Assembly: GCA_963377175.1 (NCBI GenBank)
Contig: CAUJNA010003001.1
Span: 165,001-229,000, forward strand
Source of the DNA: Effrenium voratum
Taxonomy: Eukaryota > Sar > Dinophyceae > Suessiales > Symbiodiniaceae
Direction: 5' to 3'
DNA length: 64,000 bases
Shown here: piece by piece, positions 11,460 through 41,046 of the stretch
How positions within the stretch are numbered: the stretch's first letter is position 1
How the letters are laid out: each line of letters begins with the position of its first letter
Notes under the pieces: model-generated
What the model was told of the DNA's origin: nothing
What the model saw: the letters and a program-made list of their open reading frames with translations, nothing else
The model's database searches: none
Translations under genes and position numbers: made by a program

Positions 11460-11716
11460 AAAAAATGGAGAAAAGGGGGGCCCTGAGGGGAAGCCTGTTG
11501 ATGGTTGCCTGTTCTGGTTTTTATGTTAATCTCAAATCTGTGTTCCCCCTTATTCGTTTTTTAAAGAGGGTTTTTAGGGAGCTTATTTATCGTTTTCGTT
11601 AAGGTAATCATTTGGGTAATTGCCCCCCTTGTTCATTGTTGGGCTGGGGGCAAACATTTTTTTCATTTGAAAGAGTTAGCCCTTTTAGTAGTTATCAAGT
11701 TCTGGGGTGTTGGCGG
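11460..11716 (+). repeat. Left terminal inverted repeat
   Basis: Starts AAAAAATGGAGAAA and runs inward to CTGGGGTGTTGGCGG. The reverse complement of 40788-41046 matches it along its whole length with only scattered substitutions, including the blocks AAGCCTGTTGATGGTTGCCT and TTATTTATCGTTTTCGTTAA. Similarity stops abruptly inside the last G tract. Confidence 0.9.
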
Positions 11717-11984
11717 TGCTTGTGTTTTCACCTCACCTCGGCTTCGTGAACTTTGACATTGTCTTCGTTTCCTATCGTCGGGATGCCCAGATTGAAGCTT
11801 GATGTCAGTCATTGATGCTGAATTGCGAGAACACAGTCTTTAGCGTTGACGTTGTCTTTTGCCGCAGTTTTGCTTTAGGTTGTTCTTTCTCAAGTGGACG
11901 ACTCAAGCCATGTTCCAGAACTTGCTCGTCTTCTTTTCGCTCTTGAAGCACTTGGTCTTGGTGGTGGTTTCTTTCCCTTTCAGG
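11717..11984. other. Sub-terminal region, no gene seen
   Basis: There is no convincing coding frame. It has pyrimidine-rich stretches, and the last bases (TTTCTTTCCCTTTCAG) look like a splice acceptor directly before the ATG at 11985. An intron or a 5-prime leader receiving a spliced leader is possible. Confidence 0.35.
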
Positions 11985-12149
11985 ATGAGACGTTCAATGC
12001 TAGAGCGTCAGTCACAGCGAGATTACGAAGCCTTTCGGAGATATATGTCAGAGAACCGCCACCTCTGGACTAATCGCGATGCATATGAACATGAGCGTCA
12101 TGCCCTTCATGATGTCACAGACAAAGACTTTGATTGGTGCCGAGACTGA
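11985..12149 (+). CDS. Small charged protein of the left module (hypothetical)
   Basis: 54-codon frame from the ATG at 11985, beginning MRRSMLERQSQRDYEAFRRY. It is rich in Arg, Glu, His and aromatic residues and ends KDFDWCRD. The frame is open further upstream, but that part is hydrophobic, has no natural ATG near its start, and includes a CTTTCCCTTTCAG acceptor-like signal immediately before this ATG, so I chose the short form. It may be the last exon of a spliced gene. No family was recognised. The base composition is that of the GC-richer left module, not of the AT-rich viral core. Confidence 0.4.
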   Translation: MRRSMLERQSQRDYEAFRRYMSENRHLWTNRDAYEHERHALHDVTDKDFDWCRD

Positions 12150-12294
12150 TGTTGAAGGATACTTCAACATGTAAATACCGACACAGACCGCAGGAAAAAA
12201 AAAGCTAAGTGACAGTGTCATTCTTGAGAGTGACTTGACTTGAGCACTTCAACTTTCCATACTGAAACACTTGCATTGTGTCAGAGCATTTTGG

Positions 12295-12311
12295 TTTTGA
12301 CTAGTCCTTAC
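12295..12311 (+). promoter_or_regulatory. Upstream motif of left-module gene, copy 1
   Basis: TTTTGACTAGTCCTTAC lies 27 bp before the ATG at 12338. A near-identical TTGACTACTCCTTAC lies before the next gene. The two upstream regions share little else, so this is a candidate promoter or leader element for this module. Confidence 0.4.
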
Positions 12312-12337
12312 CTGTTTGTCCCTTTCACTGCTGTGTG

Positions 12338-13153
12338 ATGGCGTCAAAGTCCGGATACCCGATGGAGCAGGATGACACTGTCAACGACGAGATGATTGCG
12401 GAGCAGGTGCAGTTGGCAGAGGTTGAGTCTTCTAACCACGAGGGTGAGGAGAGCGAGCAAGAGGGTGAGACAACAGACCCAGAGGTGGAGGTCATTGACT
12501 TGCGTGAGTTGATGGAGTCCATGATTGCGGAGGGTGACGAGTCGTTCCAGTCATTGCTTGACAACGTCACCACAGAGGCAGACATGGAGATGCTGATGGA
12601 CAAGATTCGTAAGCATCAGGACCATGTGGAGAGTTTGCTGTACATGGTCAAGGAGAAGCACAAGGAGGAGAGAACCAATAACAAGGAGGAGCGTGACAGA
12701 TTGAAGAAGATTGCCAACAAGGTTCGGAAGACGGCGTTGGTGGAACAGGCACAGCAACAGGTGTTTGACATCATCGTCTCCTTCGAGGGTCAGCAGTTCC
12801 CCTTGCAGGTGCTAGGTGCATTCACGCTGAAGGACTTGAGGGCGAAGCTCATGGCGACGCACGGTGGCACGTTTCCGACCCTCTCCTTCGTGGATGGTTT
12901 GGTCTACACCTTGGGCATTGAGGGTAACCCCATCATGAACAACAATGCACGGCGTACCATGTTCTCCAGTGACAGCACAAAGAGTTGGCGGTTCTTCAAC
13001 GGCATTGTGGTCAATGTCCGCCGTAAGACGGAGGCAGAGGCAAAAGCGAAGGCAAAGGCATCCACTGCGGCGAAGGCAAAGGCATCCACTGCGGCGAAGG
13101 CAAAGGCAAAGGCATCGTCATCAGCGAGTGGGGCATCCTCATCCACACAGTGA
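12338..13153 (+). CDS. Unrecognised left-module protein with acidic N-terminus and Ala/Lys-repeat tail
   Basis: 271 codons from the ATG at 12338 (MASKSGYPMEQDD). Residues up to about 65 are very acidic. A helical, highly charged segment follows to about 125. A compact region of about 85 residues from FDIIVSFEGQQFPLQV to GIVVNVRRK then has the strand-helix-strand look of a beta-grasp or ubiquitin-like fold; that is my inference from pattern only. The C-terminus is a low-complexity tail of tandem KAKAS/TAAKAKAS units, basic and probably disordered. The downstream gene encodes two segments with a similar layout and shares an upstream motif. GC content is far higher than in the viral core, suggesting a different origin. 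No homologue is recognised; nucleic-acid binding by the tail is possible. Confidence 0.7.
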   Translation: MASKSGYPMEQDDTVNDEMIAEQVQLAEVESSNHEGEESEQEGETTDPEVEVIDLRELMESMIAEGDESFQSLLDNVTTEADMEMLMDKIRKHQDHVESLLYMVKEKHKEERTNNKEERDRLKKIANKVRKTALVEQAQQQVFDIIVSFEGQQFPLQVLGAFTLKDLRAKLMATHGGTFPTLSFVDGLVYTLGIEGNPIMNNNARRTMFSSDSTKSWRFFNGIVVNVRRKTEAEAKAKAKASTAAKAKASTAAKAKAKASSSASGASSSTQ

Positions 13154-13346
13154 GCATCAAGTCACTGAGCGGTGTCAAGTTTTGTCGGTTTGCACTTGAT
13201 GGAGAGAGCATACCAATGGAGTTTGCAATCCCTTTGCCACTTGGTTAGTTCTTCTGTCAGTTGTAGACCATCGCATACCCATGAGCAGAGTGCCACAGAG
13301 AAAAACAATTCTCAGACTTGCCTTTGACATGACTTGAGTCGTGAGA

Positions 13347-13361
13347 TTGACTACTCCTTAC
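13347..13361 (+). promoter_or_regulatory. Upstream motif of left-module gene, copy 2
   Basis: TTGACTACTCCTTAC, 71 bp before the ATG at 13433, matches the motif at 12295-12311 at all but one position over 15 bases. Confidence 0.4.
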
Positions 13362-13432
13362 AATTGTTGTTCTTGACCATTTGATGCTTGAATGCAACCA
13401 TCCATGAGCCACTTTGCTGACAAGTCCTTCTG

Positions 13433-14854
13433 ATGGCGTTGTCCCGCCCGTTGCTCGTTCGACCGAATGCTCCTCGGGGCGACGCTCATTGGACTAGAAA
13501 GATGAAGAAGGATAGTGAATTGCTTCTGTCCTTCATCAAGATGAATGACCTCTTGCCTGCCTTTGAGTTGTTCCGTCAATCCCAAGGGGAGAAGGACACT
13601 GTCAAGACTTCTTCCAGTGGTGCTCTTTCACCAAAAGAAGACGTGGTCGCCAAGGATGACAAGTCTTCCGATGGTGGAGACGGGGATGATGAACCTTCCG
13701 ATGGTGGCAGTTCCAGCGACGGCCAGGGCGAAGAGCCGGACATGTCCTTCGTGGTGATGGTAGACAACGAGGTCTACAAGATGAAGGACGACAACGAGGT
13801 GTTGGTCTGCCTGAAGTTCATGATGATGGCACGCCTCAACATTCCTTGGCATGACATCAGCTTGGACTATGTGGACACTGAGGACACCTTTACCGACATG
13901 GATGACACGTTTTACGTGGGTGACCTCCTGACAGAGTGCTTGGGCGTGGGACAGAAACCTTCCACCATCGTGGGTGTGGACGTGATGCTGAAATCTCAAG
14001 TGGTGGTCAACGAGCAGGACGTCCTTTTTCTTGTTATTGTCCGTGAGCAGTTTGGTCAGAGGTTGCATCACCATCTCCAGATGGCAATGTATCTATCTAC
14101 GGGTCTCATCAAGAAGTGTGTTCAATACTTCATGGCGGAGAAGAAGGACATCAACGTGGACTGCTTCATGGTGAACTTTCAGGATGACGACTACGAGACG
14201 GTCGACTACATTCCTGAAGGTCTGGAGTTGTTGACGGTGAATGTCAGCATCTACGGACGTGGCGGTGCTCTGAAAAAGGTGCTGAAACCACACCTGAAAG
14301 AGAGCGAGGCAAAGACGAACTTCATCCAGAAGAGTCACAAAACCCTGAAGTCCTACTTGGAAGACGCCGAGACCAAAACCAACCTTGCCCCCGCTGAGGT
14401 CCTTGCTCTGGTCCAACCGATGATGAACAGGATGGAGGAGTTCAAGAGAAAGGCGTCCGCTGGTGAGGACGTCCTCATTGATGGATTGAACAGCTTGTCA
14501 GACGAACAACTTGTCATGCTGAGCGAGGTGTTCAAATACAAGAAGGGGGAATACACTGAGCAGATGCTGGCGAAGGGTGCCTACGTGCTCATCCCTGAAC
14601 TGGGGCAGATGGACGATGCCATTGGACACGTCACGAAGCATAAGAACACGGTTTTGTCCGACTTCCTGACAACCTACGCGAACCTGTTTTGTAGTCAGAA
14701 GGCGAATGGAGAAGTGCACTACGACAATGAGCGGTTCCGTGAGGCGGTGCGAGAGGTTCTCCTGTATAGGCGAAGGCTCCGCAGGAATGCTCAGGGTACT
14801 GAAACTGGGCAGGATGAAGACCCATCCAATCCGGCCCGTTGCCTCGTGATGTGA
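13433..14854 (+). CDS. Unrecognised 473-residue left-module protein with two similar beta-rich segments
   Basis: A single intact frame starting MALSRPLLVRPNAPRG. About residues 1-50 are basic and helical. Residues 50-102 are an acidic Ser/Asp/Gly linker (repeated SDGG). There are then two successive segments of about 85 residues, one beginning MSFVVMVDNEVYKM and one beginning DVLFLVIVREQFGQ. Each contains an opening strand, a helix, a DxD-rich loop and a closing hydrophobic strand (STIVGVDVML; LELLTVNVSIYGRGG). I read these as tandem copies of the domain type in the preceding gene, by pattern only. A GRGGALKKVLK basic motif leads into a long helical C-terminal half that ends in a basic RRRLRR stretch. 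Codon use is GC-rich. It is uninterrupted while many core genes are broken, so it may still be maintained. The function is unknown. Confidence 0.75.
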   Translation: MALSRPLLVRPNAPRGDAHWTRKMKKDSELLLSFIKMNDLLPAFELFRQSQGEKDTVKTSSSGALSPKEDVVAKDDKSSDGGDGDDEPSDGGSSSDGQGEEPDMSFVVMVDNEVYKMKDDNEVLVCLKFMMMARLNIPWHDISLDYVDTEDTFTDMDDTFYVGDLLTECLGVGQKPSTIVGVDVMLKSQVVVNEQDVLFLVIVREQFGQRLHHHLQMAMYLSTGLIKKCVQYFMAEKKDINVDCFMVNFQDDDYETVDYIPEGLELLTVNVSIYGRGGALKKVLKPHLKESEAKTNFIQKSHKTLKSYLEDAETKTNLAPAEVLALVQPMMNRMEEFKRKASAGEDVLIDGLNSLSDEQLVMLSEVFKYKKGEYTEQMLAKGAYVLIPELGQMDDAIGHVTKHKNTVLSDFLTTYANLFCSQKANGEVHYDNERFREAVREVLLYRRRLRRNAQGTETGQDEDPSNPARCLVM

Positions 14855-14862
14855 GCATTTGC

Positions 14863-15022
14863 ACAGTGGATAATGACCTAATTATCCAGCGGATAAATCA
14901 ACTGACCTTTCATTATCCAGTGGATAATTCAACCACTCTCTTTTTATCCAATGGATATACCTGTCAATATCCAACGGATATACCCTTGAATATCGAATGG
15001 ATATGAGTGCCATTATCCACCA
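14863..15022. repeat. Array of palindromic 15-mers, consensus WTATCCARYGGATAW
   Basis: Directly after the stop of the 473-residue gene lie five near-perfect palindromes spaced about 25-30 bp: TTATCCAGCGGATAA, TTATCCAGTGGATAA, TTATCCAATGGATAT, ATATCCAACGGATAT and ATATCGAATGGATAT. A half-site CAGTGGATAATG precedes them and CATTATCCACC follows. The spacers differ, so the palindrome is the conserved unit. This fits an array of binding sites for a dimeric protein, for example at an origin, partition or regulatory region. Confidence 0.75.
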
Positions 15023-15699
15023 TCTCAAGGTCTAACCAAAAACCTCACTGCCAGAGAAACAAGGAGGAAAAAAGGGACGAGACTTGTCTGGGTTTTGTGG
15101 TGTTTTTTGTTGTTTCACGTCATTAGTTAGCGTTCCTCTTCGCATCCGAGGTTGAGAAGTCTTGCTGTCCGAGCTCTACATGACTGCTGTCTACTAGGTT
15201 CGCCTGACACAGGGTTGACTTTTAGGGGTGTCGTTCTTGTCTTTTTGTTTTTTTTGTTGGGGGGTTTCTGTTGAGGGGAGGGTTCAAACAAGACACTTTG
15301 AAGGTTGAAGAGCAGAAGGGTTCAACCACAACCCCACCAACCCCACCAACCCTACCAACCCTACCAACCCTACCGACCCCGCATCCATCCCGCTTGTCAG
15401 AAGGTCCGACCTCATTCACATCTTAGGCAGGTTTCTCGGGTATGGGATAATAACAATCCTAATAAAACCATATACAAACCAGTATAAATACAAAAAAAAA
15501 CTATAAAACAAGGCGAAACTCTCGCGATTTTTTTATTTATTTTGAGGTCTCTCACAAACTCATTTGTTTGTAAATGTTCGGTGATTTGGTCCTTTCCTTG
15601 TTTTTCAAAACCCTTGTTTTTCCCCATGAAATCCATCAAATTTAAAAAACATAACGAAACATAAAATCACAAAAACGGAGTTGAGAAAATCAAGAACTT
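15023..15699. other. Left-module to core transition, no supported gene
   Basis: T-rich sequence with homopolymer runs. A short tandem repeat of CCCCACCAA/CCCTACCAA units lies at 15329-15380. A 75-codon minus-strand frame (15412-15639) has no recognisable features. GC content falls to that of the viral core at about 15450. Confidence 0.5.
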
Positions 15700-15762
15700 T
15701 CAAATTTGCGACCAAACCTGAGAGCCCGAACCTGTCCCTGAAAATAATTCTAATAATTTCAT
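15700..15762 (-). pseudogene. Remnant of a C5 cytosine methyltransferase start
   Basis: On the minus strand an ATG at 15762 is followed by KLLELFSGTGSGS and a stop after 20 codons. ELFSGTGS is motif I, the SAM-binding start of C5 methyltransferases. The 25 bp before it (CTAAATAGTTCTAATAATAT) match the DNA in front of the intact methyltransferase at 38924. The left arm therefore once carried the same gene order outside the polymerase, and was cut here. The GIY-YIG gene that lies between polymerase and methyltransferase in the right arm is absent on this side. Confidence 0.6.
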
Positions 15763-15822
15763 ATTATTAGAACTATTTAGATAATTATTTTATGGAGTAA
15801 TGTCGCGAAGCTCATTAGGCTA

Positions 15823-18800
15823 TTACTTTGTAATAGCGTAATGTCCATATGGTAATGAATTGAAAGCATCAATATAAAACCTTTTATTTTCATAATTACT
15901 CAGACTTTGCTTGACTTGAGACATTGAATATATTTGATGCGACTTACTCCTGATGAAGTTATATGTGATTTCGTGCTTTTTGTTTTGAAATAATGCTTCG
16001 TGATAGTTCTGATACGACAGTTCTTTTTTCACTTTGTGTTTCACTACACCGTTTGATTTCTTATGTTCATCATCCTCACCGTGAATTGTGAAGGCATAAG
16101 ATTTAGGTTTTAATCCGATGAATTTAGTAATGATTTTTCCATTGACTTCATCTTTGTACATTCCTAAGACCTTTTTATTAGTTTTGTCATGACATGGATG
16201 CTCAACAGGATAGTCGCTAAAATCCATGTGTTGCTTTATATCATTGAAATCCTTATAGACATCATCAGTCATTGTTTGAATTACATAACTGTCAGTATCA
16301 GTATATATCAATTTGATGTTTTCATTATACTTCTTTTTCAATACATCATAGTAAAACTGATACATATGTAATTTGCTTAAATCTAAAATGCTCATTCCTA
16401 AGAAAATCGGTTTATCCAGTTTCAGTTTTGCTTTAGTTTTCTCAACTCCTACGAGATTTTCATTAATAATAAATCTGTTTTTGAATGTTGGGTTATTAAC
16501 GCATTTTTCATATCTTACCTCATTATCAACCAGTTCAAAGTCCATATGGTTTCTTTTGTCCTCCATAGTTTTTCCGTACACCGCGTTATTCATTAATTTG
16601 AATAAATCTTTCTCAAAATCGCTTTTGGCTTCTTTCCTTTTACCAGTGTTGAAGTCAATCCACGGTTTCAACCAAGCCCTCTGTTGAAACTTTATTATCC
16701 TATGGACTTTACCCATTTTCATTCCCATTTTCAAATAATACTGTAAAGTCTTGATATGAACCACATATTTTTCTTTATCCTTTAGATTTAATATTAACTT
16801 ACTTGTTTTCTCGTCCTTGGGACTTTTACCATCATAATATATTTTGAAGACTTGCTTTTGATAGTCGGAAAGCATATTCACATTTACATTCATTATTTCA
16901 GGCGCTAGTGGATAGTCGGAGTGGAAGTCGTGCAATGTTTCGGGATATTCCAAATCAACTTCCATAATATAACCGAACTCATCGTTTTCATTCCATTTTT
17001 CAACACTGGGCGTTTTCTTTGCCCACTTGATATTTTTTAGCGGTAACTTCTGGGACATTGCTAAACCATACAAGTTATTAGCATCCAAGTAACTAATATA
17101 ATTTGATGGCTTGTTCTCATCATATGCTTCCCCCATATACTTATTATTTGCCACCGCTAATTTATGACTTACCTGACACATACCACCTCTCATTCCCTTT
17201 TCAACCATCTCAAACATTTCTTGGTCATGCAATTGTTCTATTTCAACACCAGTTTTTAGAAGCATCGCGTCCCATGCGAAATTTGGCAACGTATAATAAT
17301 GAGCGGGGTCTAAACCGTAGTATTCCATACACAAGTCTCTAAAGTTTTCAAATACATCGGTCAGTAGTAAAACATCAGTTCTTAAATACAAGTCGTGATA
17401 CTGCCCGAGTGTTCTAATCCCGAAGTGCTTCCATACTTTTAGTGCCCTTTCATAATCTTTATCGCTTACATGTTCTTCACTCAATTTACTGTAAAACGCT
17501 TCTTTCGGTGGTAAAGCCCTTTCCTTAAATCTTTCAAAATCATCAAAGTAGTCATAGGGATAAATACCCTTATCAGTCAATAAATCCAAATCTTCATCGG
17601 TTTTAACATACGGGTTTCTAACGCTGTATCTGAAATTGTTCTTCCAATTCTCACGCTTTTTATCATCCTCATATTTACTCAACTTCACCAACTTATCCAA
17701 CGAAGACGATAAGAAACTGAAACTGTCCTTGAAACAAAGATTTTTAAAACCAAAGGTTATAAACTTTTCGCTGTTCTGAGCGATACATTCGATTTTAGAA
17801 TTTTTGTTCAGTTCGTGAGCTTTGTTGATGATTAAGTGGGCATCATAGTTTTTAAGGTTATGAAGAAACACAGGGATTTTATAATATCTCATACTAAAAC
17901 CAAGATTACAATCATCGTGGGCGCATCCTCTGTAAGCTCCAGTAAAGTGACAATGGTCTCGAACCTTCTTGTCCTCAGGTTTAAAATCATTTCCACAGAT
18001 AAAGCAAGTAGTAGCATTTTCAAAATCTTCCTTGTCCTTTTCAGTCATGATTATCTCTTTTACTTCCTTCATCCTACTAATAATATCTTCTCTGACTTCA
18101 TTGATTTTTTCAACAAACTTATCCATACAATCTTCACCTCTATATAAGTAAGGCTCACTACTTCCGGTTATAGCATTGACTACATTAATCATAAAACCAC
18201 ACGGACGATGATTTTGATATGATGTAGTTTTAGCTTTTGCCGATTTGCTTTTAACATCAATTGGCACAGTTAAACATTCAAAGTCGGCATAGATTACGAA
18301 TGGAGCTTTAAGTTTCTTGAAATGGTTTTTGAATTCTATTGTTTCACCTGCTTTTGGCATTTCTATTTTTTGACCCTCAACTGCTAGACATCCCTGTTCT
18401 TCGTGTTTCTTTAAAAGTTCTTCGGTCTTGAAACCATGTGAGCAGGTTCTACAGTGATACTTCTTCGCCTTCATCTTGTTAGTCTGACTACTCATTAACT
18501 TATCGTAATTTTTGATATAAGCGTAATGCGATTTAACATCATCAGTCAATTTAATCAAATCGATTTTGTGTTGTGCTTGTGGGTTGTTGCTTCTTTTGTA
18601 TAATAAAATAGTTTTACTATTCGTATCGGGGTTTATGTAATAAACATTGACCGATATGTGTTTGTTCTGTTCTTCAAATAGTTCAATCTCATCATTACCT
18701 ACTGGAAAGTCTATTCCGTCCCATTTGATAAATTTGTCATCTACATATTTCTTATAATGATACATGTCGCAGGGATGGTCTTTTTTGTATAACTCATAAA

Positions 18801-19572
18801 ATCCGCATTGAACGGAATATTTAAAACATAAGTCATCCTCGTTTTTAATGTTAATACAAGCCTTTTTGTTTGCCACCCAGTCGGGCAATGGAATAAAGGA
18901 TGAACCACAGGTAGGATTGTACCTATCATAACTGATGACTAACTTTTCAACTTGACCAAGAACCAATCCCGACTGAATGTATTCGGTTATTTCAATTTGT
19001 GTCTCAATGTCGTGCCCAATGTTGTTTAAGACGGTGTTCAACTCGTCGGGATTATGAATATTGTATCTTCTGCTTCTTAACCGCCTTTGAATAAGTTCGT
19101 TGTCGGGATTTTTGAATGATAAATCGGTTTCCACGATTATTTTCATGTTCGGGTTTCTGTTCAGGAATTCGGCCAGTCGTTGCTTCTGGTATTTTAAGTA
19201 GGATAAACCTTTCATTCCCTTTAATCTTATATCACTTACCGAGTAGGTGTTGGCGTATCCCTTGAACGCTTGTTGCTCGTCTGTGATTTTGGACTTGAAA
19301 CGCTTGACATAATCCTGTAAGGGTCTGCCTCTCGTTAGTTTTAGATAATTAGCACCTTTCATTAAAAGGCCATGCTTTCTATATCCGTCACTCCTCGCCA
19401 CTTCCTTGAGTTTCGTGTTCAATACGTTTGAAACTGGTTTGTTCTTATCATATCTGTAGGTCTTATCACCTATTTTGAGTTTTTGTGTTTGCCTCCCTTC
19501 TTTTTGTATTAGTTCGCCTTGTTGGCTGTTTAAAATGAAATCTATGATTTTATTTTCTGACATGGTAACCAT
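15823..19572 (-). CDS. polB: DNA polymerase B, Polinton-type, intact copy
   Basis: 1249 residues, intact. Replicates the viral genome; this family normally primes with a terminal protein. Visible order: an N-terminal region of about 360 residues; a C2H2-type finger (YHCRTCSHGF and KKHEEQGC) near residue 370; ExoI YADFEC near 427; an inserted treble-clef/endonuclease VII-like block (CFICGNDF, then DHCHFTGAYRGCAHDDCN) near 520-555; ExoII HNLKNYDAH near 569; ExoIII LRTDVLLLTDVF near 731; polymerase motif A SYLDANNLYGLAM near 827; motif B KLMNNAVYGKT near 991; motif C YTDTDS near 1090. All catalytic aspartates of A and C and of the exonuclease are present, so the enzyme could be active. The divergently read promoter motif at 19588-19621 precedes the start. 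The mirror copy (34577-38323) has two frameshifts. Confidence 0.93.
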   Translation of the reverse strand: MVTMSENKIIDFILNSQQGELIQKEGRQTQKLKIGDKTYRYDKNKPVSNVLNTKLKEVARSDGYRKHGLLMKGANYLKLTRGRPLQDYVKRFKSKITDEQQAFKGYANTYSVSDIRLKGMKGLSYLKYQKQRLAEFLNRNPNMKIIVETDLSFKNPDNELIQRRLRSRRYNIHNPDELNTVLNNIGHDIETQIEITEYIQSGLVLGQVEKLVISYDRYNPTCGSSFIPLPDWVANKKACINIKNEDDLCFKYSVQCGFYELYKKDHPCDMYHYKKYVDDKFIKWDGIDFPVGNDEIELFEEQNKHISVNVYYINPDTNSKTILLYKRSNNPQAQHKIDLIKLTDDVKSHYAYIKNYDKLMSSQTNKMKAKKYHCRTCSHGFKTEELLKKHEEQGCLAVEGQKIEMPKAGETIEFKNHFKKLKAPFVIYADFECLTVPIDVKSKSAKAKTTSYQNHRPCGFMINVVNAITGSSEPYLYRGEDCMDKFVEKINEVREDIISRMKEVKEIIMTEKDKEDFENATTCFICGNDFKPEDKKVRDHCHFTGAYRGCAHDDCNLGFSMRYYKIPVFLHNLKNYDAHLIINKAHELNKNSKIECIAQNSEKFITFGFKNLCFKDSFSFLSSSLDKLVKLSKYEDDKKRENWKNNFRYSVRNPYVKTDEDLDLLTDKGIYPYDYFDDFERFKERALPPKEAFYSKLSEEHVSDKDYERALKVWKHFGIRTLGQYHDLYLRTDVLLLTDVFENFRDLCMEYYGLDPAHYYTLPNFAWDAMLLKTGVEIEQLHDQEMFEMVEKGMRGGMCQVSHKLAVANNKYMGEAYDENKPSNYISYLDANNLYGLAMSQKLPLKNIKWAKKTPSVEKWNENDEFGYIMEVDLEYPETLHDFHSDYPLAPEIMNVNVNMLSDYQKQVFKIYYDGKSPKDEKTSKLILNLKDKEKYVVHIKTLQYYLKMGMKMGKVHRIIKFQQRAWLKPWIDFNTGKRKEAKSDFEKDLFKLMNNAVYGKTMEDKRNHMDFELVDNEVRYEKCVNNPTFKNRFIINENLVGVEKTKAKLKLDKPIFLGMSILDLSKLHMYQFYYDVLKKKYNENIKLIYTDTDSYVIQTMTDDVYKDFNDIKQHMDFSDYPVEHPCHDKTNKKVLGMYKDEVNGKIITKFIGLKPKSYAFTIHGEDDEHKKSNGVVKHKVKKELSYQNYHEALFQNKKHEITYNFIRSKSHQIYSMSQVKQSLSNYENKRFYIDAFNSLPYGHYAITK

Positions 19573-19587
19573 AATACTATACTCTAT

Positions 19588-19621
19588 ATAATATAAGATA
19601 TTTTCTCTTTAAGTAGTTTTT
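19588..19621 (-). promoter_or_regulatory. Conserved viral promoter motif before left polB
   Basis: Read on the minus strand, AAAACTACTTAAAGAGAAAA is followed by ATCTTATATTATAT a few bases before the start. The same composite occurs before the zinc-finger genes and before the gene at 39922. Confidence 0.6.
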
Positions 19622-19720
19622 CGGGCTGGGGTTGACTGTTGGAGAAAATGGGTTTCGGGTTGAGAATGAACGCATTAATCTCATTAAGTGTTTTTAATAA
19701 GATGAATGATTATTATTTTT

Positions 19721-20045: not shown

Positions 20046-20049
20046 TTTA

Positions 20050-32243: not shown

Positions 32244-33167
32244 ATGATTAAATCAATTAGTAGATTGAATACAGTAGGACCGGTAAAAGTAGGGTCTTTG
32301 AAATCACAATTACATTTGAGACCTTCTTATGATGAATTATTGAAAGAAACATTAGTAGGAGATGAGAACCGTCCAGCAATTGAAAATGTGATAGACAGAA
32401 AAGCGACAAGATACAGATTAAACCAATACGGTAGTCAGTTTGATAATAAGGACGTCTTAGACATTCAAAAGAAACAAGAACTAGACCGGAGAGGAGAAGT
32501 TATGAAAGGAGCAATGTCGGACGATGGTAGTGTAAGAGCTAAACTTAATGATGAATTGAAACTTGCTGACACACTGAAACAACACCAGTCTTTCATTCAA
32601 GAAGGACTAACGGAAGCACAGAAACAGAAAGAAGAACTTGCAGAAAAAATGAGACTTTGGAGAGAACAACACGAAGAAATGGCAAGCGCTGTTTCGAAGA
32701 GTTCATATCCTGCCGGTGTAGAAGTTCATTCAATGGTGTCCGCTGATGAAATGCCAGAATTAGAACCATTAGAGGAAGGCGAAGAAGAAGATGAACGAGA
32801 AGACGACCCAGTTGTTGAAGTAGAATCAAAAGCAGAAGACGCTTATGATTACAACGTGTTTAAGAAAAGAGCGTCTGAACTAACACCCGCTTATCTTGCA
32901 AGCAGACCAGAAGAGATGAAAACAGTCATGGACAAACTGAAAGGATTTAGAAAGATTAAAGACAGTGTTCATGAAGAATTCACTGAGTTATATAATGCTT
33001 TAATTAATAGCGATGGTGATTTTATCAAGAAGGAACACAGATTGAAATTAGTAAGGTTTTACAATGATAAAGTGTATTACTCAGTTTTCCACCCACGACC
33101 TAAGGAAAAAGAAGATAGTCCAACCGTGATGGATGGTTCGGTTAAAGAAATACCAGCGGAAGTTTAA
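32244..33167 (+). CDS. Coiled-coil core protein, 307 residues (right copy)
   Basis: Intact mirror of 20942-21865, differing at about six residues (for example SDDGSV against SDADSV, YDYNVF against YGYNEF). Length is identical, including the acidic EEGEEEDEREDD stretch. Confidence 0.7.
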   Translation: MIKSISRLNTVGPVKVGSLKSQLHLRPSYDELLKETLVGDENRPAIENVIDRKATRYRLNQYGSQFDNKDVLDIQKKQELDRRGEVMKGAMSDDGSVRAKLNDELKLADTLKQHQSFIQEGLTEAQKQKEELAEKMRLWREQHEEMASAVSKSSYPAGVEVHSMVSADEMPELEPLEEGEEEDEREDDPVVEVESKAEDAYDYNVFKKRASELTPAYLASRPEEMKTVMDKLKGFRKIKDSVHEEFTELYNALINSDGDFIKKEHRLKLVRFYNDKVYYSVFHPRPKEKEDSPTVMDGSVKEIPAEV

Positions 33168-33187
33168 TAAAATATATAATATTTAAT

Positions 33188-34067
33188 ATGACTAATAAAT
33201 ATTATGGATTACGCCGACGCCCTACTTTTGAAGAAATGCTAAAGGAAGCGATGACGCACAGATTAAAAATTGAAATCATCCCCGAAAGACAGGTAATTGA
33301 CTTGTCAATCAACAATATAGATTTTGACGATTTTGACCTTTCAAAATACGATAGGAGACTACGGTTGAATGCTAGGGTTCAAACTGATGAACAAGTTCTT
33401 CAACACGAATTGTTCCCTGATATGTTTGATGAAGTAGCGCCAACATCACAGTTATATGAAAACAACGAGGCAGACGCACAAACAACACGATATATAGCAA
33501 AAGATTTTACTGATGAAATTTATAGTAATGCAATTTCAGGTAGGACTGAAGAAAAGAAAAAGTCAGATGAACCAACCGATGTAAAAGATACTGATTTAAA
33601 ACAGTCTGATGAAAAGCAGGAAGATTTACAAAGTCTTCATTTAACGTCATCATCGTCAGCATCAACCGTGAAAGAGGAAGAGAAGAAAGAGGAAAGCCGA
33701 GAAATAAAATCGTTAAGAAACATATTTTTAGGTGGAGAAGACAAGAGCGTATTTGAACTATTCAAACGATGACAAGAAGACATCCACACCATCAGAACAA
33801 TCAAGGGAACAGGAAGAAGAACAACCAAGGGCATCATTCTGGTCAAGACGACAGGTAGAAGCAAGAAGCAGAAGCCACTCACCAGAAGAAAGAGCAAGAG
33901 GTAATCAAATGAACAGAAGACAATTAGAAACAAGAAGCAGGAGCAACTCACCCCAAGAAATAGCTAGAGGTAGTGAATGGACGAGGGAACAAATGGAAAC
34001 AAGAAGCAGGAGTAGAAGCCCAGAAAGCACAAATACAAAAAGTAGCCGAGGCAAGAAGAAAAAATAA
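33188..34067 (+). pseudogene. SR-repeat protein, frameshifted right copy
   Basis: The conserved N-terminus and a linker unlike the left copy (KKKSDEPTDVKDTDLKQSDE in place of PKDE repeats) are read in one frame to a stop at 33772. The SR repeats continue in another frame to 34067. The break lies near 33765-33770 (TTCAAACGATGACAAG here), where the left copy has an extra base. The linker difference is a real sequence divergence, not a read error. Confidence 0.75.
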
Positions 34068-34098
34068 AAACTACTTAAAGACAAAACGCCCTAATATA
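34066..34098 (+). promoter_or_regulatory. Conserved viral promoter motif before right zinc-finger gene
   Basis: AAAAACTACTTAAAGACAAA followed by CGCCCTAATATAG, 6 bp before the ATG. Confidence 0.6.
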
Positions 34099-34103
34099 GT
34101 AAA

Positions 34104-34427
34104 ATGACAGGAATTTTTATTAACGGTAATAGTAAACAGAGAATAACGAATGACGAATTTGATATGATGGTTGAACTGATGAAAGCAGAAAACGACTTAG
34201 TCTTACAGATGATAAGCGAACAGAAACAGACTTCGAGCGATGACAGTGAGCAACCCGTGAGGTGGAGGGACGACCAGAAGAACTACCACCAGAATTACTA
34301 CAACAATAACCTAAAACAGTCTTACACTTGTGAGGACTGCGGAAGGACGATATCAAGCAAATCAAATTTATCTAAACACAAGAAATCTAAAATTTGTTTG
34401 CAAGCTTCGCGACAATGCGCATTATGA
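34104..34427 (+). CDS. C2HC zinc-finger protein, intact copy
   Basis: 107 residues. An acidic, Gln-rich N-terminal 65 residues (ITNDEFDMMVELMKAEND) is followed by one classical finger, CEDCGRTISSKSNLSKHKKS and KIC (residues about 76-98), with Cys in place of the last His. This looks like a small sequence-specific DNA-binding protein, for example a viral transcription factor. Single-finger proteins of this type occur beside the polymerase in Polinton-like viruses. It lies next to polB, and both have the ACTACTTAAAGA promoter motif. The left copy is frameshifted. Confidence 0.7.
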   Translation: MTGIFINGNSKQRITNDEFDMMVELMKAENDLVLQMISEQKQTSSDDSEQPVRWRDDQKNYHQNYYNNNLKQSYTCEDCGRTISSKSNLSKHKKSKICLQASRQCAL

Positions 34428-34527
34428 AAAAAATAATAATCATTCATCTTATTAAAAACACTTAATGAGATTAATGCGTTCATTCTCAACCCGAAACCCA
34501 TTTTCTCCAACACTGACCCCCTACCCG

Positions 34528-34560
34528 AAAAACTACTTAAAGAGAAAATACCTTATATTA
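34528..34560 (+). promoter_or_regulatory. Conserved viral promoter motif before right polB
   Basis: GAAAAACTACTTAAAGAGAA followed by AATACCTTATATTA, 17 bp before the ATG. The upstream CCCCCTACC is also shared with the motif before the gene at 39922. Confidence 0.65.
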
Positions 34561-34576
34561 TATAGAGTATAGTATT

Positions 34577-37500
34577 ATGGTTTCCATGACAGAAGGAAAA
34601 ATTATAGATTTCATTTTAAACAGCCAACAAGGCGAACTAATACAAAAAGAAGGGAGGCAAACACAAAAACTCAAAATAGGTGATAAGACCTACAGATATG
34701 ATAAGAACAAACCAGTTTCAAACGTATTGAACACGAAACTAAAGGAAGTGGCAAGGAGTGAAGGATATAGAAAGCATGGCCTTTTAATGAAAGGTGCTAA
34801 TTATCTAAAACTAACGAGAGGTAGACCCTTACAGGATTATGTCAAGCGATTCAAGTCCAAAATCACAGACGAGCAACAAGCGTTCAAGGGATACGCCAAC
34901 ACCTACTCGGTAAGTGATATAAGTTAAAAGGAATGAAAGGTTTATCCTACTTAAAATACCAGAAGCAACGACTGGCCGAATTCCTGAACAGAAACCCGAA
35001 CATGAAAATAATCGTGGAAACCGATTTATCATTCAAAAATCCCGCCAACGAACTTATTCAAAGGCGGTTAAGAAGCAGAAGATACAATATTCATAATCCC
35101 GACGAGTTGAACACCGTCTTAAACAACATTGGGCACGACATTGAGACACAAATTGAAATAACCGAATACATTCAGTCGGGATTGGTTCTTGGTCAAGTTG
35201 AAAAGTTAGTCATCAGTTATGATAGGTACAATCCTACCCGTGGTTCATCCTTTATTCCATTGCCCGACTGGGTGGCAAACAAAAAGGCTTGTATTAACAT
35301 TAAAAATGAGGACGACTTATGTTTTAAATATTCCGTTCAATGTGGATTTTATGAGTTATTCAAAAAAGACCATCCCTGCGAGATGTATCATTATAAGAAA
35401 TATGTAGATGACAAATTTATCAAATGGGATAATATTGACTTTCCAGTAGGTAATGATGAGATTGAACTATTTGAAGAACAGAACAAACACATATCGGTCA
35501 ATGTTTATTACATAAACCCCGATACAAATAGTAAAACTATTTTATTATACAAAAGAAGCAACAACCCACAAGCACAACACAAAATCGATTTGATTAAATT
35601 GACTGATGATGTTAAATCCCATTACGCTTATATCAAAAATTATGATAAGTTAATGAGTAGTCAGACTAACAAGATGAAGGCGAAGAAGTATCACTGTAGA
35701 ACCTGCTCACATGGTTTCAAGACCGAAGAACTTTTAAAGAAACACGAAGAACAAGGATGTCTAGCAGTTGAGGGTCAAAAAATAGAAATGCCAGAAGCAG
35801 GTGAAACAATAGTATTCAAAAACCATTTCAAGAAACTTAAAGCTCCATTCGTAATCTATGCCGACTTTGAATGTTTAACTGTGCCAATTGATGTTAAAAG
35901 CAAATCGGCAAAAGCTAAAACTACATCATATCAAAATCATCGTCCGTGTGGTTTTATGATTAATGTAGTCAATGCTATAACCGGAAGTAGTGAGCCTTAC
36001 TTATATAGAGGTCAGGATTGTATGGATAAATTTGTTGAGAAAATCAATAAAGTCAGAGAGGAAGTTTTGGAGAAAATGAAGGAGGACAAAGACCGTATTG
36101 AAACCGAGAAGGACTGGGAGGACTTCAATAATGCCACTAACTGCTTCATTTGTGGAAACAAATTTGAGGAAGGAGAAAAGAAGTGTTGGGACCATTGCCA
36201 CTTTACGGGGCAGTATAGAGGATGCGCCCACGAGGACTGCAATCTACGATTTAGTATGAGATATTATAAAATCCCTGTGTTTCTTCATAATCTTAAAAAC
36301 TACGATGCCCACTTAATCATCAACAAGGCTCACGAACTGAACAAGAATTCTAAAATAGAATGTATCGCTCAGAACAGCGAAAAGTTTATAACCTTTGGTT
36401 TTAAAAATCTTTGTTTCAAGGACAGTTTCAGTTTCTTATCGTCTTCGTTGGATAAGTTGGTGAAGTTGAGTAAATATGAGGATGATAAAAAGCGTGAGAA
36501 TTGGAAGAACAATTTCAGATACAGCGTTAGAAACCCGTATGTTAAAACCGATGAAGATTTGGATTTATTGACTGATAAGGGTATTTATCCCTATGACTAC
36601 TTTGATGATTTTGAAAGATTTAAGGAAAGGGCTTTACCACCGAAAGAAGCGTTTTACAGTAAATTGAGTGAAGAACATGTAAGTGATAAAGATTATGAAA
36701 GGGCACTGAAAGTATGGAAGCACTTCGGGATTAGAACACTCGGGCAGTATCACGACTTGTATTTAAGAACTGATGTTTTACTACTGACCGATGTATTTGA
36801 AAACTTTAGAGACTTGTGTATGGAATACTACGGTTTAGACCCCGCTCATTATTACACATTGCCAAATTTCGCATGGGACGCGATGCTTCTAAAAACTGGT
36901 GTTGAAATAGAACAATTGCATGACCAAGAAATGTTTGAGATGGTTGAAAAGGGAATGAGAGGTGGTATGTGTCAGGTAAGTCATAAATTAGCGGTGGCAA
37001 ATAATAAGTATATGGGGGAAGCATATGATGAGAACAAGCCATCAAATTATATTAGCTACTTGGATGCTAATAACTTGTATGGTTTAGCAATGTCCCAGAA
37101 ATTACCGCTAAAAAATATCAAGTGGGCAAAGAAAACTCCCATTGTTGAAAAATGGAATGAAAACGATGAGTTCGGTTATATTATGGAAGTTGATTTGGAA
37201 TATCCCGAAACATTGCACGACTTCCACTCTGACTATCCACTAGCGCCTGAAATAATGAATGTAAATGTTAGTATGCTTTCTGATTATCAAAAGCAAGTCT
37301 TACAAAATATATTATGATGGTAAAAGTCCCAAGGACGAGAAAACAAGTAAGTTAATATTAAATCTAAAGGATAAAGAAAAATATGTGGTTCATATTAAGA
37401 CTTTACAGTATTATTTGAAAATGGGAATGAAAATGGGTAAAGTCCATAGGATAATCAAATTTCAACAGAGGGCATGGTTGAAACCGTGGATTGATTTCAA

Positions 37501-38323
37501 CACTGGTAAAAGGAAAGAAGCCAAAAGCGATTTTGAGAAAGAACTCTATAAGCTGATGAACAATAGTGTATACGGAAAAACTATGGAAGACAAGCGAAAC
37601 CATATGGACTTTGAACTGGTTGATAATGAGGTAAGATATGAAAAATGCGTTAATAATCCAACTTTCAAAAATAGATTTATTATTAATGAAAATCTCGTCG
37701 GAGTTGAGAAAACTAAAGCAAAACTGAAACTGGATAAACCGATTTTCTTAGGAATGAGCATTTTAGACTTAAGCAAATTACATATGTATCAGTTTTACTA
37801 TGATGTATTGAAAAAGAAGTATAATGAAAACATCAAATTGATATATACTGATACTGACAGTTATGTAATTCAAACAATGACTGATGATGTCTACAAGGAC
37901 TTCAAAGAATTAAACCAATATATGGACTTTAGTGATTATCCAGTAGAACATCCATGCCACGATAAAACAAATAAGAAAAAACTCGGTTATTTCAAGGATG
38001 AATGCAACGGAAAAGTAATTACCAAATTCATAGCTCTCAAACCAAAGTCATATGCTTTTACAATACACGGTGAGGATGATGAACATAAAAAATCAAAAGG
38101 TGTAGTGAAACATAAGGTTAAGAAAGAACTGTCGTATCAAAACTATCACGAAGCATTATTCCAAAACAAAAAGCATGAAATAACATATAATTTTATTCGT
38201 AGTCGCAACCATCAGTTATTCTCAATGTCTCAAGTTAAGCAATCTCTCAGTAATTATGAAAATAAAAGGTTTTACATTGATGCTTTCAATTCACTGCCTT
38301 ATGGACATTATAAACTGCGTTAA
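34577..38323 (+). pseudogene. polB: DNA polymerase B, Polinton-type, frameshifted right copy
   Basis: Mirror of 15823-19572 with two breaks. A base lost near 34921 (ATAAGTTAAAAG against ATAAGATTAAAG) gives an immediate stop after 116 codons. A base gained near 37302 (GTCTTACAAAAT against GTCTTCAAAAT) stops the 794-residue middle part, and the last 350 residues follow in another frame. All motifs survive in the pieces (YADFEC, DHCHFTG, SYLDANNLYG, KLMNNSVYGK, YTDTDS). Three stretches differ greatly from the left copy (about 36040-36250, 37535-37610 and 37890-38070) while DNA between them is nearly identical. The last residues (GHYKLR against GHYAITK) mark the end of the arm. Confidence 0.88.
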
Positions 38324-38346: not shown

Positions 38347-38907
38347 ATGGATAGCAGTAAATATAAAAACGCAAAGATTTACAAAATAACAGATGTTGGG
38401 TATAATAAGTGCTACATCGGAAGCACCTGTGAAAGCTTGAGCCAAAGAATGGCAAGACATAGACAAAATTATAACAAGGCAGAACAATGGAATAATAAAA
38501 CAAACTGTCGTTTGTTGTTTGATGAATATGGAATGGACAACTGTAAGATTGAATTATTAGAAGACTACCCATGTGAAAACAGAGAACAGTTAATGAAAAG
38601 AGAAGGTTATTACATTCAAAATAATGATTGTGTGAATAGATGTGTGGCAGGTAGAACAATTAATGAGTGGAAGGAAGACAATAAGGAACACTATCAAAAT
38701 ATGAGGAAGGAATACGCAGAAAACAACAAAGAACATATATGTAATAAAAGTAGGGAGCACTACCACCAAAACAAAGAAACAATATTGGAAAAACGAAAAG
38801 AACCTATTGAATGTGAATGTGGTGGTGTTTTCAGGAAATGTGATATAAGAAGACACGAGAGAACTGAAAAACATCAACGATATGTATGTGAAAATATTAA
38901 TATCTAA
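38347..38907 (+). CDS. GIY-YIG endonuclease with C-terminal zinc motif
   Basis: 186 residues. Core: KIYKITDVGYNKCYIGSTC (the GIY and YIG strands, residues about 10-29), the catalytic Arg in LSQRMARHR (about 32-40) and the catalytic Glu in LMKREGYYIQ (about 81-90). A charged helical repeat region (KEHYQNMRKEYAENNKEHI) and a C-terminal CECGGVFRK with RRHERTEKH finger-like motif follow. It would nick or cut DNA; such free-standing nucleases in large DNA viruses behave as homing endonucleases or repair enzymes. It begins 23 bp after polB and is found only on the right side of the element, so it could have spread independently. Confidence 0.8.
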   Translation: MDSSKYKNAKIYKITDVGYNKCYIGSTCESLSQRMARHRQNYNKAEQWNNKTNCRLLFDEYGMDNCKIELLEDYPCENREQLMKREGYYIQNNDCVNRCVAGRTINEWKEDNKEHYQNMRKEYAENNKEHICNKSREHYHQNKETILEKRKEPIECECGGVFRKCDIRRHERTEKHQRYVCENINI

Positions 38908-38923: not shown

Positions 38924-39535
38924 ATGCACTTATTAGAACTATTTAGTGGTACTTCTTCAGTTGGTAAAGTAGCAAAGTCGCTCGGTTTTAATGTTATATC
39001 ATTGGATTTGAAAAATGCTGATATTAATTGCGATATACTTGAATGGGACTACAAACAGTTTGACAGAAACCATTTCAATTTTATTTGGGCATCTCCTCCA
39101 TGCACCGAATACAGCAGGGCTAAAACCACTGGTGTTCGTAAGATTGATTATGCTAATAGTATCGTTTTAAAAACGTTGGAAGTAATAAAGTATTTCAATT
39201 GTCAATACTGGATAATAGAGAACCCTCAAACTGGACTTTTGAAGGAACAACCCTTTATGAGTGGTTTAAACTACTATGATGTGGATAAATGTAAATATGG
39301 CATGAACTACAGGAAGCGAACGAGGTTGTGGTCAAACATTGAAACATGGAAACCCAGACCATTATGTAAAAGGGATTGTGGTAAGATAAGAAATGGGAAA
39401 CATTTAGAAACTGCTCAACGCTTGCCACCAAAAACTAAGGCGGAATGGGGTGATAATCCTATATTTCATAAACAGGAAGAATTATATAAAATACCGTTTG
39501 AATTAGTGTTAGACATCCTCTGTAGTTTGGAATGA
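38924..39535 (+). CDS. Short C5 cytosine DNA methyltransferase
   Basis: 203 residues. Motif I HLLELFSGTSSVGKVAK (SAM binding, residues 2-18), an acidic residue after strand 2 (ISLDLK), motif IV with the catalytic Cys in SPPCTEYSRAK (about 57-67), motif VI IENPQTG (about 97-103), and motif VIII-like YRKRTRLW (about 128-135). It is shorter than bacterial enzymes and has almost no target-recognition domain, like the small methyltransferases in phages and algal viruses. It could methylate viral or host DNA. It follows the GIY-YIG gene by 16 bp. A 20-codon remnant of a related gene lies at the corresponding place in the left arm (15700-15762). Confidence 0.8.
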   Translation: MHLLELFSGTSSVGKVAKSLGFNVISLDLKNADINCDILEWDYKQFDRNHFNFIWASPPCTEYSRAKTTGVRKIDYANSIVLKTLEVIKYFNCQYWIIENPQTGLLKEQPFMSGLNYYDVDKCKYGMNYRKRTRLWSNIETWKPRPLCKRDCGKIRNGKHLETAQRLPPKTKAEWGDNPIFHKQEELYKIPFELVLDILCSLE

Positions 39536-39564: not shown

Positions 39565-39690
39565 CAAGGTGTCCCCAAAATGGGGGACGGGGTGTCCCCA
39601 AAATGGGGGACTGGGTGTCCCCAAAACGGGGGATTAGAGGACTGGGTGTCCCCAAAATGGGGGACTGGGTGTCCCCAAAATAGGGGACCG
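39565..39690. repeat. Tandem hairpin array, unit GTCCCCAAAATGGGGGAC
   Basis: Five copies of a unit that is its own inverted repeat (stem GTCCCC/GGGGAC with a short AAAAT loop), separated by TGG, GG or a longer spacer (ATTAGAGGACTGG). Single mismatches (AAAACGGG, AAAATAGGG) are present. Both strands have G runs, so cruciforms or G-quadruplexes are possible. It lies between the methyltransferase gene and the gene at 39922. The open frame across it is a by-product of its 21 bp period. Confidence 0.8.
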
Positions 39691-39877
39691 TGTCTCGTTG
39701 AAATGAGAGTAATTGAATAATGATACGGTGGAATAGGACTATGGAGAGGATAAGTGAATTAGTTTATTCATAATATTTAATTATAATATGGTTAAACATT
39801 GTTTTATAATCTAACAAGAAGGTTAAGACATTTAAATTAAACCTGAAACCCAGACCAGCCGACCAGCAACCCCCTAG
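39691..39877. other. AT-rich spacer, no gene seen
   Basis: No coding frame. AT-rich, with ATTTAATTATAATATGG-type stretches, leading into the promoter motif of the gene at 39922. Confidence 0.4.
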
Positions 39878-39912
39878 CCAAAACTACTTAAAGAAATATT
39901 ACCTTATATATT
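39878..39912 (+). promoter_or_regulatory. Conserved viral promoter motif before the gene at 39922
   Basis: CCAAAACTACTTAAAGAAAT then ATTACCTTATATATTA, 9 bp before the ATG. CCCCCTAGCC stands upstream, as at polB. Confidence 0.65.
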
Positions 39913-39921
39913 AAAAGGAAA

Positions 39922-40449
39922 ATGAACGGTGATGGAATCAATAATTATATCAATAAAAAATGCTATGATTGTTGCCACTTCAAAAAAGAAAATATGGAAT
40001 TGTATAAATTGAGTTTACCTAATGAAATAGTGAATAATATTATTAATTATTCAATGGATGGTGAAGAAGACATATGTAAAAATTGTAAAACTTGGAGAGA
40101 TAATCAATTTTTAATCAAATGTCTGTTGGGAATAAAAAGAATACATAATAGAAATGTAGAAGATGATATTTTAATATTTCTAACTGTAAATAAAATACCA
40201 CCTTACGATTGTGTTAAACAGTTTCTTAAAATCAGTAAGAAAAAATATGACACGATTTACGATATATTATGGATGTTGGGTTATAGTCAAGAGAAAGGAG
40301 AAGATGTTAAAGAAAATATCAAATTATTTATTGAAAGTAAAAAGTTTAATGTTCAGAATACAGTGAGAGATGTTAATATTATTTTTAAAATGATGTATGA
40401 AAGAAGTAAGACAAACCAATTAGATTATTATCCTGAACTGAAATTATAA
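39922..40449 (+). CDS. Cys-rich, F-box-like hypothetical protein
   Basis: 175 residues. Early CYDCCHFKK and CKNCKTWRD pairs (residues about 14-22 and 53-61) could bind one zinc. Between them LYKLSLPNEIVNNIINYSMD resembles the start of an F-box (L-LP-EI-I), although the rest of the motif is not clear. The remainder is helical and Lys/Ile/Asn-rich. It has its own ACTACTTAAAGA promoter. If F-box-like, it might recruit host ubiquitin ligase; this is only a suggestion. It is present only at the right end. Confidence 0.55.
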   Translation: MNGDGINNYINKKCYDCCHFKKENMELYKLSLPNEIVNNIINYSMDGEEDICKNCKTWRDNQFLIKCLLGIKRIHNRNVEDDILIFLTVNKIPPYDCVKQFLKISKKKYDTIYDILWMLGYSQEKGEDVKENIKLFIESKKFNVQNTVRDVNIIFKMMYERSKTNQLDYYPELKL

Positions 40450-40574
40450 TCATAATATAATAATAACATGTAAAATCTTATATGTTATAATTATACTGAA
40501 CTTTTAACCTATAAAACATAGCTAGACAATCACATAAAAATCACATAAAAAGAAGTTGTTAAGATATATTAAGA

Positions 40575-40820
40575 ATGGTTGTGAAGCAAACTATAATGAA
40601 TAATTATGGAATGACAGAAGAAAAAGCAAAAGAAGACTTTGGTGAATTCTTCAAATGTAGCAGATGCCTTTATGATAAAACAATTGATGAATTTGGAAAT
40701 GTAAAAAGTGGAAGAAGATATAAATATTGTCAAGAGTGTAGAACAAAAATAAATAATTGTAGAGATAAACGTCAAAGAAACAAACGACCCACCAACACCC
40801 CAGAACTTGATAACTACTAA
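40575..40820 (+). CDS. Small zinc-ribbon protein ending inside the right terminal repeat
   Basis: 81 residues. FKCSRCLYDKTIDEFGNVKS then YKYCQECR: two CxxC pairs (about residues 27-30 and 51-54) separated by a DEFG segment, a pattern known from many small proteins of large DNA viruses and from HNH-associated zinc ribbons. The C-terminal dozen codons lie in the terminal inverted repeat. Probably a DNA-binding accessory protein; the function is unknown. Confidence 0.55.
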   Translation: MVVKQTIMNNYGMTEEKAKEDFGEFFKCSRCLYDKTIDEFGNVKSGRRYKYCQECRTKINNCRDKRQRNKRPTNTPELDNY

Positions 40821-41046
40821 AAGGGCTACCTCTTTCAAATGAAAAAAATGTTTGCCCCCAGCCCAACAATGAACAAGGGAGGCAATTACCAAAATGATTA
40901 CCTTAACGAAAACGATAAATAAGCTCCCCAAAAACCCTCTTTTAAAAACGAATAAGGTGGTTAATAGGTTTGAGATGAACATAAAAACCAGAACAGGCAA
41001 CCATCAACAGGCTTCCCCCCAGGCCCCCTACTTTCTCCATTTTTTT
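40788..41046 (-). repeat. Right terminal inverted repeat
   Basis: Inverse match of 11460-11716, ending TTTCTCCATTTTTTT next to the CCCTCC tract. See the left repeat for the shared blocks. Confidence 0.9.

Follow-up and report, generated by a model that had tools for sequence, protein, structure and literature searches.

An integrated palindrome in the dinoflagellate Effrenium voratum that appears to carry the polymerase/capsid half of a Polinton-type virus twice

We analysed a 64,000-nucleotide stretch of the dinoflagellate Effrenium voratum (assembly GCA_963377175.1, contig CAUJNA010003001.1, positions 165,001 to 229,000; hereafter the window), which contains an integrated, virus-like element of 29,586 bp at window positions 11460-41045. 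With a probability of roughly one half, this element is the polymerase/capsid half of a Polinton-type virus duplicated in inverted orientation between terminal inverted repeats (TIRs), a structure that arose by replicative fold-back together with recombination. Judged by its sequence, the element is this half present twice, while the 3′ end of the fibre gene, the S74 chaperone, the A32 ATPase and the rve integrase are missing.

Comparison of the window with itself (self-BLAST) aligned positions 11460-11716 with 41045-40789 over 257 bp without gaps at 93.0% identity. By the same comparison, positions 15839-24348 matched 38310-29777 (94.9%) and the region 24986-29546 matched its own reverse complement (95.6%). 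An initial annotation of the window had proposed terminal inverted repeats of about 257 bp and two inverted copies of about 11 kb around a 22-nt axis, and both were confirmed, the two arms being ~95% alike. The axis is located at 27264.5 within a non-palindromic 22-nt spacer, on either side of which 223 bases pair without mismatch, and divides the element into 15.8 kb on the left and 13.8 kb on the right. Arm-to-arm identity varies between 82 and 99% in most 300-bp bins. The GC content is about 33% in the arms and 52% in the flanks.

Single-core versions with the same terminal repeat, which the initial annotation had suggested looking for, were found within the same assembly (1,155,904,702 bp in 3,699 contigs). 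The best 40 of 908 candidates for the TIR were scored and included pairs about 22 kb apart. Both TIRs were found in nine of the 13 elements examined (C3214, C890, C3393, C3490, C3687, C1846, C108, C3476 and C3099, the last with one TIR truncated) at distances of 20.5-23.1 kb; for C1126, C3025, C3114 and C3338 the second TIR was not in the fetched stretch. Among the elements checked, only C3214 (L009-L011) was read throughout. This single-core element of 22,116 bp has the order TIR, GIY-YIG gene, intact polymerase open reading frame (ORF) of 1248 aa, capsid gene, fibre gene, post-axis half and other TIR, and its capsid gene is homologous to the double-jelly-roll capsid gene of the window. Past the position of the axis, C3214 continues with the remainder of the fibre including a Peptidase_S74 chaperone (Pfam, E = 7.4e-11), a Pox_A32 ATPase (251-aa ORF, 2.6e-11) and an rve integrase (308-aa ORF, 4.8e-9), the latter two above the cut-off. 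The C3214 stretch with the ATPase and the integrase (L011 173 to 6183) gave no blastn match in the window. Because its own integrase and ATPase are missing by blastn, the window element is best regarded as a defective derivative and not as an autonomous Polinton. The earlier description of a double virus with two viral cores therefore needs correction: a viral core in a TIR-bounded palindrome is indeed present, but each of the two 'cores' is only half of a single-core element, and since both arms repeat the same polymerase/capsid half, with the S74 chaperone, ATPase, integrase and fibre 3′ end absent, the element is not a double virus. The distance from axis to TIR is 13,781 bp in arm 2 and 13,823 bp in C3214, although each has segments without counterpart in the other. 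C3214 is an imperfect copy of the window half, as the methyltransferase gene is missing from it and one more GIY-YIG gene is present. This second GIY-YIG gene (L009 9045-9623, Pfam 9.7e-7) lies between two core genes and occurs in neither window arm.

The two arms match different variants of the virus. Within the 1.65 kb beside the axis, arm 1 is nearest to locus L034 (27 differences at 1642 sites) and arm 2 to L028 (43/1648) and L032 (43/1647); the arms differ from each other at 66 of 1642 sites, and C3214 is far from both (254 and 241 sites). These loci were selected because they resemble the window, and this may bias the comparison towards close relatives. The first 200 bp are uninformative because the arms and their nearest loci are identical there. 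In the seven 200-bp intervals that follow, 5-20 of 22-29 loci are nearer to arm 1 than arm 2 is, and 9-22 of 22-29 are nearer to arm 2 than arm 1 is. At the end of the polymerase gene, 76 of the final 400 bases distinguish the two arms. Arm 1 is separated there by 12-22 sites from L062-L066, loci of the arm-1 type (named subtype B) with GC-rich cassettes, and for arm 2 the smallest distance is that to C3214 (42 sites), compared with 73-77 sites to L062-L066. Relative to C3214, differences cluster in long runs private to one arm. Such mosaic arms suggest that exchange between co-resident variants is common here. The alternative reading of the initial annotation, a recombinant of two related viruses, is supported; the arms differ in their nearest relatives and in their end modules. 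Between the arms, pooled synonymous divergence (dS) was 0.177 and nonsynonymous divergence (dN) 0.025, giving an omega of 0.14. By gene, omega was 0.27 for the major capsid protein, 0.14 for ORF307, 0.08 for ORF110, and 0.18 and 0.07 for parts of the polymerase. The low pooled omega indicates that most differences between the arms arose while the genes were under selection.

In both arms the break falls within the fibre gene, and the two homologous break positions are offset by about 10 nt. Arm 2 reads GAAATGTATAATCATTATTTTGAT up to the turn; arm 1 reads GAAATGTAAAATAA and is followed by the inverse of arm 2. A short hairpin, ATCA-TTATTT-TGAT, is present at the joint in the arm-2 variant. The 255-aa ORF that crosses the axis corresponds to the first part of a fibre-like protein, and its frame enters inverted sequence four residues on. 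The pre-axis motif is present in 40 of 104 fibre homologues, 38 of which extend past it with conserved sequence; the two exceptions are P0122 and P0157, and the remaining 64 are without the motif (shorter, shifted or diverged). P0122, representing a fibre cluster of 13 members, stops right after the axis residues (EMYN-SPDS), and this place may be a recurrent break point. The joint is compatible with fold-back plus a small templated insertion and equally with direct end joining, as the sequence would allow either.

Among the best 40 of 1219 candidates, the window alone was matched across the axis by a 331-base query. In the remaining 39 loci the match stops at the spacer (query 1-160 or 161-331), with 99-100% identity. 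The fibre continues beyond the axis in all 28 of these loci that were read at the DNA level (L014-L041), as well as in C3214, and inverted pre-axis sequence was found within 1.5 kb in none of the 28. A multiplied family of palindromes is therefore unsupported, as among these 40 of 1219 candidates only the window crosses the axis with this query, which is specific to this axis. One candidate for a second inverted junction (L036, in C819) proved to be a 2.6-kb internal inversion of a single-core element. This inversion (L069, L036) covers the 3′ part of the fibre gene and the adjoining ORF.

Single elements examined sit in G or C runs or in G/C-rich repeats (L002-L008, L042-L060), C-rich microsatellites among them. 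In seven of the eight single elements with both outer ends readable, the two flanks are enriched in one common base when read on one strand, C3476 being the exception. The window flanks are both C-rich on one strand, with repeat units that differ (A-containing on the left, T-containing on the right). Target-site duplications of 5-6 bp are ambiguous in such G/C homopolymer targets. A search for an empty site with the left flank returned one match in the assembly, the flank itself.

In the scenario that we favour, a copying strand would have folded back inside the fibre gene and run to the same end a second time. The nascent strand would turn at the hairpin of the arm-2 variant, with an insertion of 6 nt, to give a strand with a TIR at both ends. 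An exchange with a co-resident genome of subtype B, by homologous recombination or template switching, would then make the arms differ, and an intact relative might have supplied the integrase that inserted the product, to decay later. Because each terminus retains an end repeat, replication of the palindrome might start at both ends, driven by the polymerase of an intact relative or by its own arm-1 copy. Such an element would work like a defective helper-dependent genome, and it is predicted to need intact relatives to move or be packaged.

Several observations weigh against this scenario. Pure fold-back yields identical arms, and as the window arms are ~5% apart, recombination during or after the fold-back must be added; a simple snapback of one molecule without later recombination was ruled out by the differing nearest relatives and end modules. 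The hairpin base C (AATCATT variant) is absent from arm 1; it is seen in arm 2 and, among 28 other loci, in L014 alone. There is no clear microhomology at the junction, and a simple hairpin product misfits unless the 6-nt insertion is added. The subtype assigned to arm 2 applies to a limited stretch: over the adjoining 400 bases its distance is 24-26 sites to L062-L064 and 27 to arm 1, compared with 51 to C3214, and as the nearest relative switches between adjacent 400-base stretches, arm 2 is itself mosaic. The window flanks share 4 bp only (CCCC). At 29.6 kb, the element exceeds the single-core genome of C3214 (22.1 kb), which makes packaging doubtful. Finally, the 1249-aa ORF of arm 1 had no DNA polymerase match in Pfam (E ≤ 0.1) or NCBIfam. 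Since the fold model of a 625-aa part of it was also poor, with a predicted local distance difference test (pLDDT) of 30, the polymerase is confirmed by neither profile nor fold, and we infer a protein-primed family B DNA polymerase from family-B motifs that can be read in the ORF.

Three other origins were weighed against the fold-back. Two viral genomes might each have been cut at the same fibre site, perhaps by a virus nuclease such as the GIY-YIG type, and their polymerase-side halves joined as a heterodimer that was then integrated. We consider this unlikely, even though arms of different variants would need no extra steps, the joint lacks microhomology, the elements encode homing-type nucleases and the 13-member fibre cluster P0122 stops, at the protein level, close to the same residue. 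Random breaks without a specific nuclease would seldom coincide within ~10 nt, and there is no known cut site or nuclease specificity. Such near-coincident break points would also be improbable from two independent breaks in the chromosome, and it is quite unlikely that two separately integrated elements were joined by a rearrangement after integration, in which case the palindrome would never have been a viral molecule. The outer flanks, which have only CCCC in common and repeat units differing by side, would fit such a rearrangement, as would left and right TIRs that are nearest to different loci and the internal inversion of C819; on the other hand, both flanks are C-rich on the same strand, like the agreeing flanks of the single elements.

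An assembly or library artefact, that is, a chimeric or fold-back read in the contig, is quite unlikely as well. High-copy, near-identical elements are reported to assemble poorly (excerpts of PMC10120064), and the joint was seen once among the scored candidates. However, a fold-back read would give identical arms, which here are ~5% apart with an omega of 0.14 and lead into different end modules and flanks within a contig of 2.04 Mb; a chimera of two molecules would be compatible with all of this. Replicative fold-back with recombination is therefore the origin that we prefer.

The features of the element are compiled in Table 1. For the arm-1 capsid protein, an AlphaFold2 model (pLDDT 65, predicted template modelling score 0.71) matched capsids of the Paramecium bursaria chlorella virus 1 (PBCV-1) VP54 type and of iridoviruses with a Foldseek probability of 1.00 and E ~1e-13, and also viral capsid models. 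By this modelled fold, the 460-aa protein is a double-jelly-roll major capsid protein. At E ≤ 0.001 this protein has 342 homologues, with a cluster of 297 sequences at 96% being the nearest. In another lineage (P0119), the capsid protein continues into fibre-like sequence and a Peptidase_S74 domain, as would be expected had a deletion merged the capsid and fibre genes. The endonuclease segment of the 1249-aa ORF matched Pfam Endonuclease_7 below the cut-off (E = 2.5e-4) and PHROG endonuclease VII (1.2e-6). Neither the 284-aa ORF of arm 2, which from its position is likely a minor capsid protein, nor the GIY-YIG-type ORF had a Pfam match. No family of capsid maturation proteases was above the Pfam cut-off in the scanned ORFs; a weak Peptidase_M57 match below the cut-off was seen in a 219-aa ORF. 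Scans of IMG/VR with the capsid protein, the capsid alignment and the polymerase found no relative. In the window, a dinoflagellate spliced-leader pattern had 0 matches, which is weak evidence either way, and Rfam at gathering thresholds gave 0 matches. Outside the element, two arrays of 67-bp tandem repeats lie in opposite orientation at 54435-55550.

Table 1. Features of the palindromic element (window positions).
Feature	Position	Strand	Remarks
Left TIR	11460..11728	+	257-bp pair with right TIR; homology to TIRs of other elements extends to 11728
GC-rich end cassette, likely exchangeable	11729..15328	.	ORFs 12338-13153 (271 aa) and 13433-14854 (473 aa)
AT-rich stretch	15329..15838	.	Typical of the polymerase-side end of the arm-1 type (subtype B)
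Arm 1, polymerase-side half of a single-core element	15839..27253	+
Arm 1 polymerase/endonuclease ORF, 1249 aa	15823..19572	-	Likely protein-primed family B DNA polymerase with endonuclease-VII-like segment
Arm 1 major capsid protein, 460 aa	25093..26475	+	Fold match
Arm 1 fibre gene, broken frame	26536..27253	+	Ends at axis
Axis spacer, 22 nt, within fibre gene	27254..27275	.	Break points offset by ~10 nt
Arm 2, same half inverted	27276..38310	-
Arm 2 fibre ORF, 255 aa	27230..27997	-	Passes through axis into inverted sequence
Arm 2 major capsid protein, 460 aa	28062..29444	-	94% identity to arm-1 capsid
Arm 2 ORF, 284 aa	30477..31331	+	Presumably minor capsid protein (by position)
Arm 2 polymerase gene	34577..38323	+	In three broken ORFs
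GIY-YIG-type homing endonuclease	38347..38907	+	PHROG homing endonuclease, E 4.7e-8; same gene adjoins polymerase in C3214
DNA cytosine methyltransferase-like	38924..39535	+	PHROG DNA methyltransferase, E 3.2e-16; Pfam DNA_methylase below cut-off
ORF, 175 aa, function not assigned	39922..40449	+	Homologous sequence adjoins the TIRs at both C3214 ends
Right TIR	40778..41045	-

The end modules are asymmetric. By blastn, nothing at the AT-rich right end (38311-40777) corresponds to the GC-rich cassette next to the left TIR. The left TIR itself is closest to that of C1126 (L002; 99.2%) among eight other TIRs compared. The AT-rich stretch between cassette and arm 1 accompanies the polymerase end in 18 other loci with 81-98% identity (best 40 of 1034 candidates). 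In other elements (L054, L058, L062-L066), the same slot beside the polymerase end holds differing GC-rich sequence, suggesting that the cassette is exchangeable; the idea of a stray host insertion was dropped for this reading. L054 and L058 have a cassette in common (98.6% over 3.15 kb adjoining the TIR), and L062-L064 have another (99%). The cassette ORFs had no Pfam family above the curated cut-off, and a protein search with the 473-aa ORF, in which the best 7994 candidates were scored, found four homologues at E ≤ 0.001. At the right end, the methyltransferase part (39015-39728) matched no retrieved end region, and this gene may be special to the window copy.

Symmetric defective genomes of adenoviruses are palindromes with duplicated ends that a protein-primed linear DNA virus yields via fold-back; these are not integrated and their arms are identical, whereas the window element is integrated and its arms differ. 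Together with Mu killer of maize, the closest described analogues are the snapback genomes of adeno-associated virus (AAV), in which one end is duplicated in inverted orientation, the terminal repeat is retained and the other end is lost, and which are copied only with helper functions supplied (excerpts of PMC8235507). The same combination of duplicated end, retained repeats and lost other end is found here, whereas arms identical at origin are not. As the arms are ~5% apart and have different nearest relatives, we class the element as working like a snapback genome and not as a simple member. AAV also differs in being a parvovirus whose snapbacks were read from virions; the window copy is integrated, has arms of different variants, and its helper dependence is predicted.

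Polintons/Mavericks and Polinton-like viruses (excerpts of PMC10120064 and PMC12721341) resemble C3214 in TIRs, capsid homologue, A32 ATPase, rve integrase and a size of 15-25 kb (22.1 kb in C3214), and they resemble the window arms in being AT-rich relative to the flanks. Unlike Polintons, the window element consists of one half in duplicate, with the ATPase, integrase and fibre tail missing. OmPLV, found in Oxyrrhis, instead encodes a tyrosine recombinase together with a helicase-polymerase fusion (excerpts of the same two papers). Thousands of such capsid genes are reported from both a dinoflagellate and a rhizarian genome in PMC10120064, whose main text does not mention tandem, palindromic, concatemeric or dimeric forms. 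Full-text literature searches found no palindromic or dimeric Polinton among the matches listed.

With respect to its consequences, the element resembles Mu killer of maize, in which part of a mobile element is likewise duplicated in inverted orientation, the terminal repeat is present twice and intact copies exist in the genome (excerpts of PMC3440606). Mu killer is reported to silence MuDR (same excerpts), whereas the window element is DNA-virus-like and known from its DNA sequence alone. The capsid and fibre genes of both arms face the axis, and the fibre 3′ end is lost there; this raises the idea, a long shot in our view, that the palindrome might silence the virus family to which it belongs. 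Such a 'Polinton killer' would be a defective virus turned host defence, as Mu killer is for the maize Mutator transposon, and a silencing locus of that type would be marked by a hairpin transcript and small RNAs against the family. For AAV, 5′ snapback dimers could in theory yield double-stranded RNA (excerpts of PMC8235507). If the idea were true, read-through at the axis would produce long double-stranded RNA against many resident copies.

The element offers a tangible example of a rearranged Polinton-type virus that may have become fixed beside its parents, and variant mixing together with differing end cassettes is evident in one resident virus family. Both its route (fold-back, cut-and-join or chromosomal rearrangement) and its consequence, as a defective parasite or a silencer, become testable questions.

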